From IMG/VR virus record IMGVR_UViG_3300013131_000218, positions 1 to 26,236 of that record: a stretch of 26,236 nucleotides of DNA, one strand, 5' to 3'. The stretch comes from a virus. The notes below the pieces were generated by a model. It did no database searches. It was not told where the DNA came from and saw only the letters and a list, made by a program, of their open reading frames with translations. Below are positions 8,796 to 22,853 of the stretch, piece by piece (position 1 is the first letter of the stretch; each line of letters starts with the position of its first letter). The position numbers and the translations under genes are program-made.

Positions 8796-10142
8796 ATGGG
8801 ACGTACAGTAGAAACCATTACCTTTAATCCAGGATCATCATTTAGCACTGGCACAGGAACATTTACTCCGCCGCCAGGAGGAATCGCTGCTGGCTCAACC
8901 GGACCTGTAACTAGTGGATTTGATATATCTGGGTTAGGTCCAGCAATTGAAGCCGCGCAGAGACAGGCACAAGATCAAGCCGCGCAAGCAAATATTCAAG
9001 CTGAAATTGAACGAAGAGCGCGCGAAATTGCAGATCAAATAATTGCAGAACAAGCACGACAAAATCAAGCAACGGCTAATGGCAGAATCTTTACTCGATT
9101 TGATATCGCCAGCGATATTATCGAAAACCAAAAGACGGAAGTTACGACAGGAGTATTTTCTGGTAATGCAGCTACAATGTCCGCTGCATATACTTCATCA
9201 GCTCAAAGCGTATCATCTAAAAAATACTTTTATGATGTTTGGAATGGCACGTCTTCGACATCAGAATCGCAATTTGCAGTAGCGTATGGTCATAGGTTAG
9301 GCTCTGGTTCATCTGCAGAAGGCACTTTAAATGATTCAGCAACTCGCGCGGTATATTCTCAATATCGTTTACTATTACTTGAACCAACAGACACGACATT
9401 TACATTTGCAAATTCTACAGATTCAAATTCAGTGTATTTTGTAAATTATACTCGAGCCAGAATTAAAGAAAAGCTAGATGCTGGTACCTGGGAACTTACT
9501 TTAGGTCAATTAAGTGGTTCAGCTGTACCAAACAATGTACATACTGGCTCAAATGTTAAATTAGCCGATAATCCAACATACATTACATTAATCGACGACT
9601 CTTCTAATACTTCAACGACTTCCGTAGTCAATGGATCTAGAGTATTTAATATTGTATCAGGATCGTTAATCAATGGTATTTATTCGTCAGCATCGCCTGT
9701 ATATTATGGATTAGCTTATCCTGATTTAGGTATTTTTGCTCTGAACGCCGATGTATTAGATGTATCTGCTTCATTTAATACTGTAACAGGATCGAATATT
9801 GCCGGAGACAATGCATTTAAATTGTTTACGGCTATATCAGGCGCAATGGCTGCTAGCAGTACTTTCGCAGCTCAAGGAAGATCGGCAGAATCAGTTTCTT
9901 CAACGCACTATTTTGTACGAGTAAAAAATGCTGAATATAACTTTTCAAACAATCCAACATTTGTTACAGGTTCAGTTGGAGAAATTGCTCAGGCTACATT
10001 TATCGGCGATCCTAAAGTTTACATTACAACCATAGGTATGTATAATGACAGACAGGAATTGTTAGCGGTTGGTAAATTAAGTCAACCTATCAAGAAGACA
10101 TTTAGTAATGAAGTTTTAATAAAGGTAAAACTCGACTTTTAA
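8796..10142 (+). CDS. Fibre-like virion protein with N-terminal coiled coil and shared C-terminal module
   Basis: This 448-residue protein has a Gly/Pro/Thr-rich start and an Ala/Gln/Glu-rich helix at about 49-92 (the stretch IQAEIERRAREIADQIIAEQ is typical coiled coil), then Ser/Thr/Gly-rich beta structure. The last 70 or so residues (YNFSNNPTF, then YITTIGMYNDRQELLAVGKL and PIKK) are clearly related to the C-terminus of the next gene at 10201 (EFNFTMNPTI, then YITTVGLYNDKGQLLAIGKL and PIRK). A shared end suggests that both proteins dock on, or are assembled through, the same partner. The start ATG 8796 follows taattaaaataaaat with no Shine-Dalgarno. The role is inferred as tail fibre or baseplate appendage. 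Confidence 0.6.
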   Translation: MGRTVETITFNPGSSFSTGTGTFTPPPGGIAAGSTGPVTSGFDISGLGPAIEAAQRQAQDQAAQANIQAEIERRAREIADQIIAEQARQNQATANGRIFTRFDIASDIIENQKTEVTTGVFSGNAATMSAAYTSSAQSVSSKKYFYDVWNGTSSTSESQFAVAYGHRLGSGSSAEGTLNDSATRAVYSQYRLLLLEPTDTTFTFANSTDSNSVYFVNYTRARIKEKLDAGTWELTLGQLSGSAVPNNVHTGSNVKLADNPTYITLIDDSSNTSTTSVVNGSRVFNIVSGSLINGIYSSASPVYYGLAYPDLGIFALNADVLDVSASFNTVTGSNIAGDNAFKLFTAISGAMAASSTFAAQGRSAESVSSTHYFVRVKNAEYNFSNNPTFVTGSVGEIAQATFIGDPKVYITTIGMYNDRQELLAVGKLSQPIKKTFSNEVLIKVKLDF

Positions 10143-10200: not shown

Positions 10201-11964
10201 ATGGCAAAGTCAGGAGTTTTTAAAACGATAAAAGATCGAGATAAATCGATTACGCCCTTTAAAGTTTATAAATCATGGGGATATAGTACAACATCTAGCT
10301 TACAGTTAGATAATATTTCTAGATTTGCTGCAATAAAGCCAAATCCTAAATCATTTAATGGAAGCATATTAACGCTTGACAGTCAACAGTACTTAAATGA
10401 TAGTTCATCTGCATTAATCAATTCATCTAGTCAAAAAGAATCTGGACTGTATTGGTATAGCATTGATCATTTATATTATAAACGAGCTGGTGTACCGTAT
10501 GACGTATTTGGTAATAGCAATCAACAAAATATATATCGAACTCTTTATCCTGAAGCATCGATAATTAGTATTCCACAAGCTCGATTCGGAGAAACGATAC
10601 GACCTGAATCAATTGAATTACGTTTACGAAATTCGCAATTAAATGCAGTTAGTATGTCTTTGTATGACGATGGAAATGGAAATTTAATTGACTCGTCATT
10701 AAGTTCATCGATTTCCAATGAATTGATTTATTTAACGATAAATTCAATGCGATACGCGCCTAATTGGACAAACAATACTTCAATAGCATTAAATACTGAT
10801 ACAGACGTGACAGAAATTTCAACGGAAACGGTAATACCTGATTTAATTATATCTGCAAAAAATGTTTGGATAACGAACAATTCTGGATATAATATCGGAT
10901 CGACAAACTGGGGCGAAGCTGCTGCATTTTCTGATAATAGCTATATTAGAATACCTACTAACGATCGAATGAATTTCGAACAAGATGACAATTATTCCAT
11001 AGCATTTTGGGCAACGCTGCCTTCGACAATATCTAGAAAAAAGCATTTATTAACTAAACGATCTACAGGATTAATCGATCGATTCAACCCTAATACTCGA
11101 TTGCTAGTACATGGAGATTTTGATACTAACAGTTCTCAATATCCATTTGATATGTATATTGACGATGCCGGCACTGGATTACCAGCAGTTGTTTGCAATT
11201 ACAAGGCTTCAGGCCAAATGGCAAGTGTACAGTATTCAGCTTCATTGGCAGATACAGCAAATTTAAATCATTTTGTATTTCAAAAAACAGGTTCAGTTAT
11301 AGAATTGTATTTCAATGGCCAGCTTCAAAGCTCGGCTTCAGTACCTGCAGGTAATATACAAAATCAAGCAGATATCTTTATTGGATCGTTAGGATTAGAT
11401 TCAAGTGGTAACGGAAAAGATGGATATTATGGATACATTCGAGAGTTTTTAATGTTTGATAAATCATTAACGCAAACCGAAATTACACAATTAACGCATA
11501 CCGGATCTAATTTAATGTCTACGAACAGAAATATTGTAGGTAATGTATTCTATGAACATGGAATTGTTGTACTGTCTGATCCTAGACCTAAATATGGAAC
11601 TGAACAATATCGAATGTTTGCCGATCAATTAATTAATCTTCGAACGAATACACTTGAGCCATCTTATTTAGATGAATTTTATTTAGAATTCAATTCAACG
11701 AAAACGTTGTATGAGCATGAATATATTTGTAAAATGCGCGGAGATGAATTCAATTTTACTATGAATCCAACCATACGTAAAAATAACAATCCAGGCAGCG
11801 AATTTCCAAAATCGTTTGTAGCTTTAGATGAATTTGCTCCATATATTACAACGGTAGGATTATACAATGATAAAGGTCAGCTTCTGGCAATTGGAAAGCT
11901 AGGAACACCTATACGTAAACGAGATGATGTTGATTTGAATATTATTGTGCGATTTGACGCTTAA
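10201..11964 (+). CDS. LamG-domain fibre/adhesin-like virion protein
   Basis: The protein is 587 residues long from ATG 10201 (MAKSGVFKTIKDRDKSITPF). An in-frame TTG at 10165 lies inside the hairpin and is rejected as start. Residues about 240-433 form a LamG/concanavalin-like sandwich: 'SYIRIPTNDRMNFEQDDNYS' with 'IAFWATL', then FNGQLQSSASVP, 'IFIGSLG' and 'GYIREFLMFDKSLT'. Such domains bind glycans in many surface proteins. The C-terminal 75 or so residues repeat the module that ends the preceding gene. It probably forms part of a tail appendage contacting the host surface; receptor binding is inference. The next gene begins 13 bases later and so probably shares the transcript, even though it encodes a nuclease. 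Confidence 0.65.
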   Translation: MAKSGVFKTIKDRDKSITPFKVYKSWGYSTTSSLQLDNISRFAAIKPNPKSFNGSILTLDSQQYLNDSSSALINSSSQKESGLYWYSIDHLYYKRAGVPYDVFGNSNQQNIYRTLYPEASIISIPQARFGETIRPESIELRLRNSQLNAVSMSLYDDGNGNLIDSSLSSSISNELIYLTINSMRYAPNWTNNTSIALNTDTDVTEISTETVIPDLIISAKNVWITNNSGYNIGSTNWGEAAAFSDNSYIRIPTNDRMNFEQDDNYSIAFWATLPSTISRKKHLLTKRSTGLIDRFNPNTRLLVHGDFDTNSSQYPFDMYIDDAGTGLPAVVCNYKASGQMASVQYSASLADTANLNHFVFQKTGSVIELYFNGQLQSSASVPAGNIQNQADIFIGSLGLDSSGNGKDGYYGYIREFLMFDKSLTQTEITQLTHTGSNLMSTNRNIVGNVFYEHGIVVLSDPRPKYGTEQYRMFADQLINLRTNTLEPSYLDEFYLEFNSTKTLYEHEYICKMRGDEFNFTMNPTIRKNNNPGSEFPKSFVALDEFAPYITTVGLYNDKGQLLAIGKLGTPIRKRDDVDLNIIVRFDA

Positions 11965-11977
11965 AATAAAATTAGTT

Positions 11978-12379
11978 ATGGCAAGAAAAAAGTTTAGTAG
12001 AAAGCAGGTAGCTGCGAAATATGGATTTCGAAGCGGTTTAGAAATGGAAATTAATGAGTCGCTTACTTCTCGAGGCATCGATGGCCAATACGAGCAAAAT
12101 GTTATTGAATTCATCAAACCTGTAACCAAGCACAAATACCGACCTGATTTTCGTTTACCAAATGGTATATTCGTGGAAACGAAAGGAAGATTTCTAGCTG
12201 CTGATAGAAAAAAGCATTTGTTAATTAAAGAACAGTGCCCTGAATTAGATATTCGATTTCTATTTCAAAATTCCAAAGCAAAAATTTCAAAAAATTCAAA
12301 AACTACTTACGCCACGTGGTGTGAGAAAAATGGATTTCTTTATGCAGATAAAGACATTCCCGAAGAATGGTTCAATTAA
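11978..12379 (+). CDS. Holliday junction resolvase, T7 endonuclease I family
   Basis: This 133-residue protein from ATG 11978 has the full T7 endonuclease I (gene 3) pattern. GFRSGLE carries Glu22, YRPDFRLPNGIFVETKGRF carries Asp57, Glu67 and Lys69, then come DRKKHLLIKEQCPELDIRF and a C-terminal IPEEWF. These correspond to the family's four catalytic residues (E-D-E-K of the PD-(D/E)xK fold), all present. Length is close to the family norm (about 150), with a slightly short N-terminus. In T7 the dimer resolves branched DNA during packaging and degrades host DNA. T4 itself uses the unrelated gp49 endonuclease VII for this, so a T7-type enzyme in a T4-like phage is a replacement worth noting. 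It stands directly before the primase and recombination genes. Confidence 0.93.
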   Translation: MARKKFSRKQVAAKYGFRSGLEMEINESLTSRGIDGQYEQNVIEFIKPVTKHKYRPDFRLPNGIFVETKGRFLAADRKKHLLIKEQCPELDIRFLFQNSKAKISKNSKTTYATWCEKNGFLYADKDIPEEWFN

Positions 12380-12416: not shown

Positions 12417-13370
12417 ATGAATAATTCTAGATTGATTGAACTGCTTCAGACACAGTTAGGCAAAGGCAAGCAAACTAATAAAGGAAACATGGCATTTTGC
12501 TGCCCTTTCTGTTCATCGTCTAAGAAAAAGTTAGAAGTTCAGACTGTTACATCTGATTCAGGTGACAACCCATGGCATTGTTGGATATGTAACAAGTCAG
12601 GTAAAAAGCTTACTTCCTTGTTTAAAGCTTTGAACTTAGGCCGAGATTTAATTTCTGAATTGCATCGGATTGTAGGCACCCAAACTAAGTATAGTAGTTT
12701 TTCGAAAGGTGATGCACGTGAGTCTACGAATGTACTCGACCTACCAAAAGGGTTTATTCCTTTACACAACTATTCCAATTCAATTGAATATAAAAATGCT
12801 ATACACTATCTAAATGTAAAGCGAGACGTGTCTTTGTCTGAAATTGTTAAATATGGTATTGGGTATTGTGAAGAAGGAGAATACAGTAAAAAAATAATTA
12901 TTCCTTCCTATGATGAGACAGGTAAATTGAACTTTTTCGTTGGTAGGTCCTATTACGATGACGACCCGTTTAAACATAAAAATCCAGACTTTTCTAAAAA
13001 TTGCGTTGGATTTGAATTGTTTATAAATTGGGATCTTCCAATTGTGTTAGTTGAAGGAGCGTTTGACGCAATTGCAGTAAGACGAAATGCAATTCCATTG
13101 TTTGGAAAAACAATATCTGAAGATTTGCGAAAGAAAATTATCGAGCGCAAAGTATCTAAAGTATACATTTGTCTAGATAAAGATGCTCAAAAACAAGCCC
13201 TGCAGCATGCAGAGTATTTTATGAACAATGGCGTTCAAGTGTATTTTGTTGATTTACATGATAAAGACCCTGCAGAAATTGGGTTTGAAACTATGATAAC
13301 GTTAATTAAAGAAACGAAGCCGCTTTCGTTTACGAAATTTATTGAATATAAACTATTTGCAAAAATATGA
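12417..13370 (+). CDS. DNA primase, T4 gp61 / DnaG-type (zinc ribbon plus TOPRIM)
   Basis: This 317-residue protein has an N-terminal zinc ribbon (Cys29-x2-Cys32, CCPFC; Cys55-x2-Cys58, HCWIC) and a C-terminal TOPRIM domain. TOPRIM shows the conserved Glu213 in VLVEGAFDAIAV and the Asp pair in LDKDAQ (Asp254, Asp256), which bind the catalytic metal. The size is close to T4 gp61 (342 aa). Such primases make short RNA primers for lagging-strand synthesis with a DnaB-type helicase, which is not in this window. Its TGA stop overlaps the ATG of the next gene by four bases (ATGA), so the primase and the Mre11-Rad50 fusion are translationally coupled. The start ATG 12417 directly follows a hairpin and has no Shine-Dalgarno. 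Confidence 0.9.
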   Translation: MNNSRLIELLQTQLGKGKQTNKGNMAFCCPFCSSSKKKLEVQTVTSDSGDNPWHCWICNKSGKKLTSLFKALNLGRDLISELHRIVGTQTKYSSFSKGDARESTNVLDLPKGFIPLHNYSNSIEYKNAIHYLNVKRDVSLSEIVKYGIGYCEEGEYSKKIIIPSYDETGKLNFFVGRSYYDDDPFKHKNPDFSKNCVGFELFINWDLPIVLVEGAFDAIAVRRNAIPLFGKTISEDLRKKIIERKVSKVYICLDKDAQKQALQHAEYFMNNGVQVYFVDLHDKDPAEIGFETMITLIKETKPLSFTKFIEYKLFAKI

Positions 13371-16300
13371 TAAGAGGAAAGAAAATTGACATTGGTATTT
13401 CGAAAATTGATAAAATTTATCATATTTCAGATGTACATATTAGAAACTTAAAAAGGCACAAAGAGTATCGAATTGTATTTGATCGAGTAGTCGAATCAAT
13501 TAAATCTACTTGCACTGAAAATTCTATAATTTTTTTAGGAGGAGATATAGTGCATGCAAAAACAGATATGACTCCAGAGCTAGTTCAATCAGTTCAGGAA
13601 TTTTTCAAAATGTTTGCAGACATAGCTCCTACAATATTAATTACGGGCAATCACGACTGCAATCTAAACAATAAAACTAGATTAGACGCTTTAACGCCAA
13701 TCGTTAATGCACTTAATCATACAAATTTACTATATCTTAAAGATTCGGGCGTTTATCAAGTGGCGGATAAAACGTTTGTAGTTATGTCTGTATTTGATAA
13801 ACCAAAAGACTTTATTCGCGCAAATGACGTAAAAGGATCGTATAAAATTGCTCTTCATCATGGCGCAGTTAATTCAGCTGTTACAGACATTGGATTTACT
13901 TTAGTTAATGAAAATGTGCCAATTGAATTATTTGATGGATATGATTTAGTATTGTTAGGTGATATTCATAAACCAGCTCAATATTTAAATCATGAAAAAA
14001 CAATAGCTTATCCTGGTTCAACGATTCAACAAAATCATGCAGAAGCATTAGATCATGGATATTTAGTATGGGATACGGCTACAAAACAATCTGAATTTAT
14101 TGTAATAGAAAACGATTTTTGCTATTATACAGTTGATATTGATAATAGTAAATACATACCATTGCCTGAAAAATTAAAAGACAAACAAATTCGTTTAAGA
14201 ATTCGGTCACAAAATACAGATACTGCAGATCTAAAGAAAATCATAGCAGAAATTAAATCGAGTTATCGTATAGAAGAAACGACAGTACAGCGAATATCAG
14301 ATTATCAAAACAATCGAAATCGTGTATCTCGAATTAATATTGGAGATGTACGCGATACAGAATATCAAAATGATTTGATAACGAAATATTTAGAAAATAA
14401 ATTTGCATTAGAAGATGACATGTTAGACGGTGTACGTTATGTTAACCGTATGGTAAATTCCGGACTGAAACATTTAGAGGTAAGTCGCAATGTATCATGG
14501 GTACCTAAACGATTTGAATTTTCCAACATGTTTAGTTATGGCAAAAATAATGTCGTAGACTTTACCAACATGAAAGGTTTGTATGGCTTATTTGCTCCAA
14601 ACGCTTCAGGAAAATCTACATTTTTAGATTCAGTTACATATTGTATATTTGATAAATGTAGTCGTGCTTCAAAAGCATCAAATGTACTAAACAATCGAGC
14701 AAGTTCATTTTCATGCAAATTTGAGTTTGAATTAAATGGAAAAGATTATGTTATTGAACGTACAGGCACGAAGGGTCGCCACAATCATGTTCGAGTAGCA
14801 GTTAATTTTTACAGTGTAGATGAATTAGGCAATCAAGAATCTTTAAATGGTAAAGAGCGTAGCGAAACCAACGCAAATATACGAACAGTACTCGGCACGT
14901 ATGAAGATTTTGTTTTAACAACGCTATCCATACAAAACAACAATTCAGGATTTATTGATATGGATCAAAGAAATCGTAAAGATTTACTTTCACAATTTCT
15001 AGACATAAACATTTTTGAAGAATTATATTCAGTCGCCAATGAAGACATCAAGGAAGTTGCTACATTACTTAAAGAATATACTAAACAAGATTTAGATACT
15101 AAATTAGCAGAATCATTGACTGATATAAAAATATATTCAGCATCGTATCAAGATTTACTACAAGAAAAACAACTGTTAGACGAAAAAATTGACGTTTATA
15201 CTGACAACATTTTAAACTTGACTTCGACACTAGTAACGGTAGATTCGTCTATAACAGATTTAAATCAACTAGTTACTTTGAAATCTTCTATAGAAACGAA
15301 AATTTCTGAAATTGAAGATAAAATTGAATCAATTGACGAATTAATTGTCGATACGCAACAAAAAATTAATGAATATACATTACAGCTGACTACATTTAAT
15401 GTAAGCGATTTAAAGGATAAAATTTCCAGTTTAGAAACGTTACGGTCTGAAGAAAAAGGTATTTTATTGAAAATTGAACGACTTAAAACGGAAGTGTCGA
15501 ATAAACTTGAAAAAATGAAAAAATTGGAAAGTTTAGAGTATGATGAAAATTGCGAATTTTGCATGAATAATATTTTTGTCAAAGACGCTATTGAAACGAA
15601 AGAATCTATTAAATTAGACGCGCTAAAAGGTGATGAAATGTCTAGACATTTAACTAGTATACGAGAAAAGATGGAAGCGTATTCGTCAGCGCAGTCTGAA
15701 TTAAATGAATATAACGATTTACTTCAATTAAAATCGACTACTGAATTGTCTTTAAGTAATTTGCGACAGCAGCTGCAAACAAATTCAGAGTTAGAAATCA
15801 AAGCAAATAATTTACTTTCTGAAGCAAAACATAAAATTGAAGAATATCATAAAACCAAAGATATCATTGCTGCTAATTTAGAAATAAACGCTCAAATTGA
15901 AAGTTTAAAGCTAGAATTGGATTATAAAAAATCTGAATTGAAAGGTATCGATCAAGAAATACTTTCTACGCATTCTAATTTATCTGTTGCTGAAAAAACA
16001 AAACAACATGCAGAAGATTCCATTCAAAAACTTAAAGAATTAACGCAGCAGTATAAATTTTATGAATATTATTTAAAGGCAGTTTCTCGAGATGGAGTTC
16101 CATATGATTTAATTTCAACTGCAGTTCCTTACATCGAGCAGGAAATCAATAACATACTTTCTCAAATTGTCGACTTCAATTTGATGCTGGATATGGACGG
16201 CAAAAATATCAATTGTCATATTGTATATGATGAAGATAATTTTTGGCCTATTGAGCTTACTTCAGGCATGGAAAAATTTATATCTTCATTGGCTATTCGA

Positions 16301-16534
16301 ACGGCTTTAGTTAATGTATCTAATTTACCCAGACCAAATTTTCTAGCAATTGATGAAGGCTTTGGTGTACTTGATTCAGACAACATGAATTCCATGTTCA
16401 ACTTATTTGATTATATGAAAACGCAATTTTCATTTATTATGATTATTTCGCACATAGATTCAATGCGGGATATTGTAGACAAACTAGTAGAAATTACAAA
16501 ATCTAAAGGACAATCCAAAATTCATTTTGTATGA
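13367..16534 (+). CDS. Fused Mre11-Rad50 (SbcD-SbcC; T4 gp47-gp46) recombination nuclease
   Basis: This single 1055-residue frame contains both subunits. Residues 1 to about 390 are a calcineurin-like metallophosphoesterase: ISDVHI (Asp22, His24), GGD (Asp60), GNHD (Asn95, His96), 'ALHHGAV' and LLGDIHK. Residues about 395-1055 are a Rad50/SMC ATPase: Walker A GLFAPNASGKST (Lys416), a long coiled coil, a zinc hook CEFC (Cys729, Cys732), another coiled coil, an ABC-signature-like LTSGMEKF (about 965-971) and Walker B NFLAIDEGFG (Asp996, Glu997). All key residues are intact and there is no internal stop. In T4 gp47 and gp46 are separate proteins that resect DNA ends for recombination-dependent replication. 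A fusion fixes the subunit ratio at 1:1. It overlaps the primase gene by four bases. Confidence 0.93.
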   Translation: MIRGKKIDIGISKIDKIYHISDVHIRNLKRHKEYRIVFDRVVESIKSTCTENSIIFLGGDIVHAKTDMTPELVQSVQEFFKMFADIAPTILITGNHDCNLNNKTRLDALTPIVNALNHTNLLYLKDSGVYQVADKTFVVMSVFDKPKDFIRANDVKGSYKIALHHGAVNSAVTDIGFTLVNENVPIELFDGYDLVLLGDIHKPAQYLNHEKTIAYPGSTIQQNHAEALDHGYLVWDTATKQSEFIVIENDFCYYTVDIDNSKYIPLPEKLKDKQIRLRIRSQNTDTADLKKIIAEIKSSYRIEETTVQRISDYQNNRNRVSRINIGDVRDTEYQNDLITKYLENKFALEDDMLDGVRYVNRMVNSGLKHLEVSRNVSWVPKRFEFSNMFSYGKNNVVDFTNMKGLYGLFAPNASGKSTFLDSVTYCIFDKCSRASKASNVLNNRASSFSCKFEFELNGKDYVIERTGTKGRHNHVRVAVNFYSVDELGNQESLNGKERSETNANIRTVLGTYEDFVLTTLSIQNNNSGFIDMDQRNRKDLLSQFLDINIFEELYSVANEDIKEVATLLKEYTKQDLDTKLAESLTDIKIYSASYQDLLQEKQLLDEKIDVYTDNILNLTSTLVTVDSSITDLNQLVTLKSSIETKISEIEDKIESIDELIVDTQQKINEYTLQLTTFNVSDLKDKISSLETLRSEEKGILLKIERLKTEVSNKLEKMKKLESLEYDENCEFCMNNIFVKDAIETKESIKLDALKGDEMSRHLTSIREKMEAYSSAQSELNEYNDLLQLKSTTELSLSNLRQQLQTNSELEIKANNLLSEAKHKIEEYHKTKDIIAANLEINAQIESLKLELDYKKSELKGIDQEILSTHSNLSVAEKTKQHAEDSIQKLKELTQQYKFYEYYLKAVSRDGVPYDLISTAVPYIEQEINNILSQIVDFNLMLDMDGKNINCHIVYDEDNFWPIELTSGMEKFISSLAIRTALVNVSNLPRPNFLAIDEGFGVLDSDNMNSMFNLFDYMKTQFSFIMIISHIDSMRDIVDKLVEITKSKGQSKIHFV

Positions 16535-20138: not shown

Positions 20139-22853
20139 ATGATTAAAACAGTAATTGCAATTTATCCGGGAAGATTTCAACCTTTTGGTCAACATCATGC
20201 AAAATCATTTAAATGGCTGCAACAAAATTTTGGAGCACAAAATACATACATTGCAACTTCAGATAAAGTAGAATTGCCTAAATCGCCATTTTCATTTTCA
20301 GAAAAGAAACAAATCATTGATGAATATGGATTAGGAGATTATGTAGTACAAACGAAAAATCCATACAAAGCAGAAGAAATTTTAGGTTCTATGGACCCAG
20401 CTACTACTGCAGTTGTATTTATGGTAGGTGCAAAAGACATGCAAAACGATCCTAGATTTGCTATGAAGCCAAAACGAGACGGGTCAGATTCCTACTTTCA
20501 ACCATACGATAAAAATAAAAGCAATTTGCAAGGGTTTGATAAACATGGATATTTAATTGTAGGGCCTCATGTATCGATTGCAATTCCAGGATATGGCGAA
20601 ATGTCAGGCACTGCCTTACGTAAAGCATTAGGAGCAAAAATTCCAAGATCTGAAAAAATTAAAATGTTCAAGGCAGTATTTGGTTGGTATGATGAATCTA
20701 CTGCTAACATGATTTTCAGTAAACTAGAACCAATATCAGAATCAAAATCTTCAATTGCGGAAATGTTTAAAAAAAGTAAATCTGCAACTACAACAAAACA
20801 TAAAGTAGAAGAGCAGATTTTTACTAAAGATTGGTGGAGTCAAATAATTGATTCAGTTATCAATGAACCAATTTCTGAAGGATATCCAAGTCAAAAGCAG
20901 ACAGATCAACATAACGCTAAAATTGAAAAACTTCGTAATTATCTTCGTAAACATATAGGAAAGGAATTTTCCTATTCATTTAATGAATTTCCAAAAACGG
21001 TTTATGGAGTTAAAATGCAAGAGTCTGTTATTTGCGAAATATGCAATAAACCGTTCAGACAAATAACAGAAAGACATTTAAAATATAAACACGACACAAC
21101 ACTTAACGAATATATCGATCAATATCCAACTGCAAAATTATTATCCGATTCTCTCAGAAAAGAATTGCGAGATAATAATCCAATGAAATACATTAAAAAT
21201 ATAAAAAAAATTGCTGAGACTAAACTAACTCGATACGGAGATAAAAATTATAATAATTACGAGCAAAGTAAAAAAACGAAGTTGGAGAAATATGGTAATG
21301 TGACATATAACAATCCAAAATTTGGAAGAGATAATTCATCGACCCGAAGCGATGTTCGTAAATTAATAAGTAAAGGTGTTACTGAATCATATGTAAAAAA
21401 TCCTGCTTTAAAAAATGAACGTTCTATAATAGGTAAGAATTTTGGCTTTGGAAACAAACAAGAATTCAAAAAGAAAATGATAGACAAAGGTTATTGGCTA
21501 TCAGAAGATGCAAAATCAGAGTTTTCATTGTATCGAAACTCTGTACGAAATATTACAGAAATAAATTATCATACATTTTTTAAGGAGATACCAAATGCAC
21601 ATTTACGTTCTAAAAAAATGCATTTAGACCATAAATACTCAATTTTTGAAGGATTTATGCATGATATTGACCCGGAAATTATAGGCCATTATAAAAATTT
21701 AGAAATAATGAGCCATTACATTAATGAATCAAAAAATATAAAATCTTCAATTTCATTATCCAAATTAGTTGAAGAAATACTTAATTCAAAAAATACCTTA
21801 GATATGGGGTATCAATTATTAATGTGCGGTGGGGCCGGGGGGCATATGGCCCACCCATTCAACATTGATTCAGTAAAAACAGGAAAAGATTTAATTGATA
21901 TCTTCAATAAATCAATTACATATTTGGAAAAAGGGCCCGCGGCAGTTAAAATTGACGGAGTTAACGCTTCAATTCGATTTGTTGAACTCAATGGTAAAAA
22001 ACAATTTGTCTTAGATCGAGGTTCAATGAAGCCGTTAGATGTACAAGGTATTACTAAAACAGATTTAGAATCGAGATTTGGTGAAGGACATGGTATGATT
22101 AAAATAGGCGGAACTGTATTAGATATATTCAATGCAGCGATTCCAAAAATTACATCGGCAATTAAATCATTAGGATTATGGGACAATCCTAATATTATGT
22201 TGAATATTGAATATGTAGCAGGCTCGACCAATGTATTACAGTATGATGAAAATTTTCTAGCAATACATGGTTTATTAGAACTGTATCAAGCAACTCCGAA
22301 ACGAAGAGCGACTAAAGAAATTTCATATAGCAAATCGGCGATGCAAGATTTACTAAATAATTTAGGTGAAACAGCAAAAAAATACAATTACAATGTGCTA
22401 GGATCAATTCCTACAACGCTTACATCTAAGCCGAATTTATCTACAGAGCTTAATCGTAAATACACTGTCACATTCAATGCAAGTACTAAAGAGACTAAGA
22501 CCTTGCTGCAGTGGTTAAACGACGCTAAAGTACCTGATACGACAATTAAAACGATAGACGGTAAAACAATATCTGCATTATCCAAAGAAGTTCTAATGAA
22601 AATTTCCGATGGTATTCCTTTAGATGAATTCATTGCCGATACAAAAGATTACAAAGACGCTGTCGATGGATTTGTAATTTATCTAGCTACTATGAAGTTA
22701 GGAGATGCAATATTAGATAAATTATCATCGCCACTGGGTCCAGTAAAAGATCATGAAGGTATTGTAATACGAGACAAACGAATTTACAACGAGCCGTTTA
22801 AAATTACTGGAAAATTTATTTTAGGTGGATTAGCCAGCAGTTTTAGAAAATGA
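20139..22853 (+). CDS. NMNAT-like nucleotidyltransferase / HNH endonuclease segment / polynucleotide-ligase-like protein
   Basis: One 904-residue frame with three parts. Residues 1 to about 200 are an HIGH-type nucleotidyltransferase of the NMNAT family: YPGRFQPFGQHH (9-20) and SGTALRK (156-162, the ISGTxxR site). The usual HxGH is changed to GQHH. Residues about 293-562 are a homing-endonuclease-like segment (separate entry). Residues about 563-904 are a nucleotidyltransferase of the ligase superfamily: KIDG (Lys604, motif I), DRGS (626-629), EGIVIRD (873-879, motif IV) and FKITGKF (887-893, motif V). The lead-in GGAGGHMAHPF (564-574) is a signature I associate with phage ligase-like proteins. 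A role in NAD or RNA-end metabolism is plausible. Whether the middle segment is removed or translated within the protein is unknown. It starts two bases after the fibre gene stop. Confidence 0.85.
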   Translation: MIKTVIAIYPGRFQPFGQHHAKSFKWLQQNFGAQNTYIATSDKVELPKSPFSFSEKKQIIDEYGLGDYVVQTKNPYKAEEILGSMDPATTAVVFMVGAKDMQNDPRFAMKPKRDGSDSYFQPYDKNKSNLQGFDKHGYLIVGPHVSIAIPGYGEMSGTALRKALGAKIPRSEKIKMFKAVFGWYDESTANMIFSKLEPISESKSSIAEMFKKSKSATTTKHKVEEQIFTKDWWSQIIDSVINEPISEGYPSQKQTDQHNAKIEKLRNYLRKHIGKEFSYSFNEFPKTVYGVKMQESVICEICNKPFRQITERHLKYKHDTTLNEYIDQYPTAKLLSDSLRKELRDNNPMKYIKNIKKIAETKLTRYGDKNYNNYEQSKKTKLEKYGNVTYNNPKFGRDNSSTRSDVRKLISKGVTESYVKNPALKNERSIIGKNFGFGNKQEFKKKMIDKGYWLSEDAKSEFSLYRNSVRNITEINYHTFFKEIPNAHLRSKKMHLDHKYSIFEGFMHDIDPEIIGHYKNLEIMSHYINESKNIKSSISLSKLVEEILNSKNTLDMGYQLLMCGGAGGHMAHPFNIDSVKTGKDLIDIFNKSITYLEKGPAAVKIDGVNASIRFVELNGKKQFVLDRGSMKPLDVQGITKTDLESRFGEGHGMIKIGGTVLDIFNAAIPKITSAIKSLGLWDNPNIMLNIEYVAGSTNVLQYDENFLAIHGLLELYQATPKRRATKEISYSKSAMQDLLNNLGETAKKYNYNVLGSIPTTLTSKPNLSTELNRKYTVTFNASTKETKTLLQWLNDAKVPDTTIKTIDGKTISALSKEVLMKISDGIPLDEFIADTKDYKDAVDGFVIYLATMKLGDAILDKLSSPLGPVKDHEGIVIRDKRIYNEPFKITGKFILGGLASSFRK
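20996..21055 (+). repeat. 10-bp inverted repeat spanning the 5' edge of the endonuclease segment
   Basis: AACGGTTTAT (20996-21005) is perfectly complementary to ATAAACCGTT (21046-21055), separated by 40 bases that include the putative junction near the ATG at 21015. The left arm lies in the host gene and the right arm in the inserted segment. Both are coding (KTVYG and NKPF). A repeat of this size could occur by chance in AT-rich DNA, so it is listed for its position. Confidence 0.35.
21015..21824 (+). mobile_element. In-frame HNH homing-endonuclease-like insertion
   Basis: About 270 codons (residues 293-562 of the host frame) carry features of phage homing endonucleases. They are a C2H2-type finger CEICNKPFRQITERHLKYKH (Cys299, Cys302, His313, His318), LNEYIDQYPTAKLLSDSLRK just after it, two related repeats TKLTRYGDKNYNN and TKLEKYGNVTYNN, and an HNH-like catalytic block 'HLDHKYSIFEGF' (Asp497, His498) with 'PEIIGHYKNLEIM' (Asn520). 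The segment begins at or near an in-frame ATG (21015) and runs without a stop into the ligase domain at the ATG/TGC at 21822-21827. Edges are approximate. I see no intein splice motifs (no terminal His-Asn) and no group I intron core that I can recognise. It may be a tolerated protein insertion, an unrecognised intron, or a fused free-standing endonuclease. Confidence 0.75.
21828..21855 (+). other. GC-rich run and strong hairpin at the 3' edge of the insertion
   Basis: GGTGGGGCC (21828-21836) pairs with GGCCCACC (21848-21855) with one bulged G, around a loop that includes six Gs (21837-21842). The stretch encodes the GGAGGHMAHP signature but uses GGG, GCC, CAC and GGG codons that are scarce in the AT-rich surroundings. 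It lies directly downstream of the endonuclease segment. Confidence 0.55.

Follow-up and report, generated by a model that had tools for sequence, protein, structure and literature searches.

The window, i.e. the whole stretch of 26,236 nucleotides of viral DNA that was analyzed, encodes a single-chain protein that combines a complete Mre11/SbcD nuclease with a complete Rad50/SbcC ATPase across a joint of approximately 11 residues. This protein is very probably a DNA-end processor of a tailed phage, a one-chain form of Mre11/Rad50 (SbcD/SbcC, T4 gp47/gp46) acting in recombination-dependent replication or repair. The fusion architecture is not new; the gene is real and belongs to a kind described in 2011 (PMC3175470), and the fused form is common in related aquatic viruses.

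The fusion gene and its domains

The fused gene is located at 13367-16534 (+) and runs as a single intact frame from ATG to stop, encoding 1055 amino acids. It was delimited by its open reading frame, Pfam and PHROGs matches, motifs and the presence of one frame in more than 100 relatives. An uninterrupted frame of 1055 codons had been reported in a first-pass annotation and was borne out, together with the positions given for D22, H24, D60, N95, H96, K416, C729/C732, SGME and D996/E997. The proposed order, nuclease first and ATPase second, was confirmed by domain matches. In Pfam, Metallophos (2.7e-10, aa 16-203) and AAA_23 (7.5e-9, aa 386-654) both exceeded the curated cut-off and SbcC Walker B (aa 966-1015) was sub-threshold. 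In PHROGs, the SbcC-like family phrog_77 (1.4e-56) and a DNA repair exonuclease (2.2e-8) were obtained. The Metallophos, AAA_23 and phrog_77 matches far exceed chance.

The Mre11/SbcD nuclease core and capping domain (aa 14-309; 13406..14293, +) were assigned using Pfam, motifs, alignment and structural comparison. All five phosphoesterase motifs with their metal ligands were found (D22xH24, G59D60xxH63, G94N95H96D97, H165 and G198D199xH201), Asp199 replacing the usual His. Using VIA-align, this part was superimposed on S. aureus SbcD (7dog_A; Z 24.9, 272 residues, rmsd 3.3), the match taking in the capping domain.

The Rad50/SbcC part (aa 377-1055; 14495..16531, +) was assigned by Pfam, PHROGs, alignment, AlphaFold and a VIA-align match of aa 378-1055 to E. 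coli SbcC (7yzo_D; Z 31.3, 350 residues, rmsd 3.2). It carries all Rad50/SbcC hallmarks: Walker A (410-417), the signature S966-G-M-E969, Walker B (D996-E997), a coiled coil and a CxxC hook, in addition to Q523, D1003 and H1029. The coiled coil comprises about 330 residues (approximately 576-906) in the AlphaFold model, and the zinc-hook motif CEFC (aa 729-732; 15551..15562, +), assigned by its conservation in relatives, is placed at the coiled-coil tip.

The AlphaFold model of the whole fusion had a mean pLDDT of 84.2 and a pTM of only 0.44, so that the relative placement of the domains is not reliably predicted. Along the chain, the nuclease core and capping domain (to approximately residue 310) are followed by a floppy loop (312-323), two helices (331-346 and 350-365), an 11-residue joint, the Rad50 part beginning with strand 377-386, the coiled-coil helices and the second ATPase half. 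The two helices form a helix-loop-helix with a pLDDT of approximately 90 (14357..14461, +; AlphaFold) where Mre11 has its Rad50-binding region. The earlier suggestion that the linker near residues 370-400 matches this region agrees with the model, in which the helix-loop-helix occupies 331-365 and Rad50 starts from 377. The linker proper (aa 366-376; 14462..14494, +) was defined by alignment of relatives and AlphaFold.

Conservation and selection

Conservation was assessed in an alignment of 64 proteins. Invariant positions were D22, D60, N95, H96, H165, D199 and H201 in the nuclease and N412, G415, K416, S417, S966, G967, E969, D996, E997 and H1029 in the ATPase. H24 was replaced by Gln in six proteins; the hook cysteines C729 and C732 were present in 63 and 64 of them, respectively. 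The signature, SGG in many Rad50s, reads SGME in the fusion studied here.

In all 64 proteins, Asp199 stands where the second metal site normally has a histidine (P. furiosus His206), and judging from this replacement metal use or activity could differ. That the nuclease is dead, the Mre11 part being structural and only Rad50 tethering DNA ends, is unlikely. This reading draws on the loss of the canonical His, a change also seen in Mimivirus R555 (PMC3175470), but Asp is able to bind metal, the six other ligands (D22, D60, N95, H96, H165 and H201) are invariant, and the invariance of the replacement itself suggests a working variant, not decay.

The linker region is nearly fixed in length among relatives, with R374-N375 followed by conserved W378-P-K; R374, N375, W378, P380 and the FEFSNMFSYG strand are all strongly conserved. 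From these residues and the near-constant length, the joint between the halves is not loose. The whole-gene dN/dS was approximately 0.07 against a 97% identical relative and 0.11 against an 80% identical one, with low values for each half; pairwise identities calculated for the N- and C-terminal domains were correlated (r = 0.92). At the level of sequence, both values indicate that the two halves are inherited together and are under purifying selection.

Gene neighborhood and proposed role

The gene order in the window is endonuclease I, primase, fusion. The T7-type endonuclease I (junction resolvase; 11945..12379, +; PF05367, 6.8e-55) and the Toprim DNA primase (12417..13370, +; phrog_47, 6.6e-40) are both conserved neighbors, and the last 4 bases of the primase gene (ATGA) are shared with the start of the fusion. 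The primase adjoins the fusion in nearly all relatives for which the upstream side was compared, and endonuclease I is kept in most close relatives. No strong Rad50/SbcC match other than the fusion was obtained in five related genomes or long contigs, where the other metallophosphoesterases were stand-alone proteins of 229-258 aa. As the window is a fragment, evidence for a recombinase comes from related genomes: a RecA/UvsX-type recombinase was found in all seven that were searched (five strong and two weak matches). Matches to phrog_97, which we take to be a UvsX-like family, coincided with the RecA matches in these genomes.

A gp46/gp47-type role is the likeliest, since the fusion is the only Rad50 in the related genomes and a RecA/UvsX-type recombinase is present. 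A Lamassu-like protein of defense or inter-phage conflict, instead of a replication enzyme, is very unlikely. The PADLOC LmuB model does match aa 392-1049 (2.1e-34) and Lamassu structures turn up in the fold search, but SbcC/Rad50 are the better structural matches, the nuclease half of the chain is of the metallophosphoesterase type, the neighbors are primase and endonuclease I, and the fusion is the one strong Rad50 of the related genomes. For a partner LmuA gene, no PADLOC match was obtained with the four neighboring proteins; the upstream flank is taken up by endonuclease I and primase.

For the DNA-end processor, oligomer state, enzymatic activity, resection direction and biological role are inferred by us as follows. 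Two fusion chains would most likely pair via their nuclease domains and ATP-bound ATPase heads, resulting in the usual M2R2 head, while the tips of the coiled coils would be held together by the zinc hooks. The nuclease site would be opened by ATP binding and hydrolysis, and double-strand ends would be trimmed to 3′ single strands. These could be used by the RecA/UvsX-type recombinase to start recombination-dependent replication and for break repair.

It had been suggested that fusion forces a 1:1 stoichiometry. This brings no real change and adds little, because ordinary Mre11/Rad50 is already a 2:2 complex (M2R2) and two copies of the fusion would rebuild it; the known picture of the complex is unchanged. 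The designation "natural minimal resection machine" is a loose one in its word "minimal", as the protein still has its capping domain, helix-loop-helix, zinc hook and a coiled coil of some 330 residues. The protein is nevertheless a compact natural one-chain Mre11/Rad50 whose halves are unable to dissociate, which makes it useful for structural and single-molecule work.

Elsewhere in the window, a 904-aa open reading frame (20139-22853) has, by eye, a nucleotidyltransferase-like front and a possible RNA-ligase-like back. It contains an in-frame insert of approximately 0.8 kb (about 21024-21827) with a zinc finger and an HNH-like region, again by eye. The insert is absent from the 97-98% identical relative L001 and has no obvious intein or intron signature.

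Relatives of the fusion

Scanning IMG/VR with the protein yielded 51 relatives, of which approximately 28 were full-length fusions with 35-97% identity; the remainder were cut by contig ends or were separate gp46-like genes. A profile scan confirmed at least 590 stretches as relatives, with full-length sequences making up almost all of the best 80. Among the collected relative loci, 105 matches span both domains, nearly all in one open frame of approximately 1050 codons; L065, with a stop near its start, is an exception. The nearest relative, IMGVR_UViG_3300004369_000290 (97% identical), has the same single frame; Microcystis phage Mel-JY01, an isolate, carries the fusion as one CDS. Relatives in the tailed aquatic phage clade are found on contigs of approximately 145-190 kb. 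The closest unfused matches were gp46-like proteins aligning with the Rad50 part only (23-39% identity). An assembly or frameshift artefact joining two neighboring genes, which are indeed separate neighbors in many phages such as Staphylococcus phage 0414_108, is ruled out by the conserved junction residues and by the recurrence of the frame in a phage isolate and in over 100 viral contigs of independent origin (24-97% identity), so that the earlier concern about an assembly error does not hold. A fusion present in most relatives and well documented had been named beforehand as counting against the first reading; most or all close relatives do carry it, and it was published in 2011 (PMC3175470).

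Three loci initially taken as stop-broken fusions (L042, L043 and L047) were rejected, as each is an ordinary unfused gp46-like gene preceded by a gene of another kind. The 735-kb phage LR756501 carries a more distant fused Mre11-Rad50 (278537-282124; 1202 aa, 24-26% identity) and an apparently separate gp46-like gene (670999-672753), which was interrupted by stop codons in the scan.

In two homologues, L025 (6609-7065) and L053 (8558-9632; 484-kb phage LR756508), the fusion gene is interrupted at one and the same point, directly behind the nuclease GDIHK motif. The inserts are different endonuclease-like sequences, MTES_1575/Vsr-like in L025 versus TnsA-like in L053, and a short tail of similar sequence closes the upstream half in each (EIDLDRYLKEGWE and EDELEKYLNSGWK). 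A search for group I introns gave no Rfam match in the interrupted homologues or in the window. The two interrupted fusion genes are possibly genes in pieces made by homing endonucleases. In L011, an endonuclease-like open reading frame with a zinc-finger-like start (9295-10113) lies 3′ of the fusion gene. Its own end repeats the Rad50 C-terminus (ISHIDSMRD...KIYYV), and this second copy looks closer to the C-terminus of the window's protein than does the end of the L011 gene itself.

A tblastn search of 72,556 plasmids resulted in partial matches only. The scan of cellular genomes gave nine loci, the full-length ones all on metagenome-assembled contigs, and these "cellular" fusions may be mis-binned viruses. 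Contigs labelled Nitrosopelagicus (L130) and Methylococcaceae (L132) carry full-length fusions with 51% and 29% identity, respectively. L132 is probably viral, because a phage-type primase gene lies directly upstream of the fusion, a phage-like arrangement.

Comparison with known systems

Both domain types are shared with T4 gp47/gp46 and with the recombination exonucleases A/B of Herelleviridae, and the role is likely the same, but in T4 and Herelleviridae they are encoded by two separate genes, which are adjacent in Staphylococcus phage 0414_108. Bacterial SbcCD (E. coli 7yzo, S. aureus 7dog) has the folds of both halves and consists of two chains; the coiled coil of E. coli SbcC is much longer than that of the fusion. 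The separate genes of T4 were noted in the 2011 study (PMC3175470).

Among phage proteins, WWT39521.1 of Microcystis phage Mel-JY01 is a full-length fusion with 43-44% identity and a primase-like gene just upstream. It differs in having a GIY-YIG protein upstream where the window has endonuclease I and a short open reading frame between primase and fusion, and it is annotated as "AAA domain containing protein" with the nuclease half unmentioned. The "DNA repair" protein BAV39141.1 of Tenacibaculum phage pT24, at rank 10 in the fold search, is likewise of fusion length and one CDS, but has only approximately 16% identity, 1310 aa and another neighborhood. The best matches in a viral fold library include fusion-length proteins of Tupanvirus, Harvfovirus, Yasminevirus, Catovirus and Tenacibaculum phages. 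The Tupanvirus protein ranked first (26% identity), and a Megavirus protein was also matched by fold.

The window's protein has GDxxH in motif II (GDIVH, 59-63) and Asp for His206 (GDIH, 198-201), as does R555; GDxxH occurs in ordinary Mre11 too, so only the Asp replacement is telling. Both features of R555 were described by Yoshida, Claverie and Ogata in 2011, who reported Mimivirus R555 as an Mre11/Rad50 fusion along with twelve more such proteins, the fusions outside Mimivirus being found in a Bacillus phage (0305phi8-36), plasmids and eukaryotes (PMC3175470). A linker of 9-12 residues was proposed from the T. maritima structure (PMC3175470). The geometry proposed for R555-type fusions is as found here: Mre11 N-terminal and Rad50 C-terminal in one uninterrupted chain, capping domain and helix-loop-helix kept, and a linker of approximately 11 residues (PMC3175470). 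The protein differs from R555, compared here by its published description, in its length (1055 versus 1351 aa) and in being encoded by a tailed-phage gene. A later description of the fusion in this phage clade was not found in the open-licence literature, subscription journals lying outside the scope.

The viral fraction of aquatic metagenomes is rich in R555-like genes, and environmental scaffolds bearing them carry phage primases and T7-type endonuclease I (PMC3175470), an arrangement that agrees with the gene order of the window. These aquatic sequences were left unassigned between phages and giant viruses (PMC3175470), and the abundance of the fusion helps to assign them to phages. There is an even chance that the aquatic tailed-phage clade is their source, in which case, instead of independent fusion events, one fused ancestor would be shared with the giant-virus R555 family.
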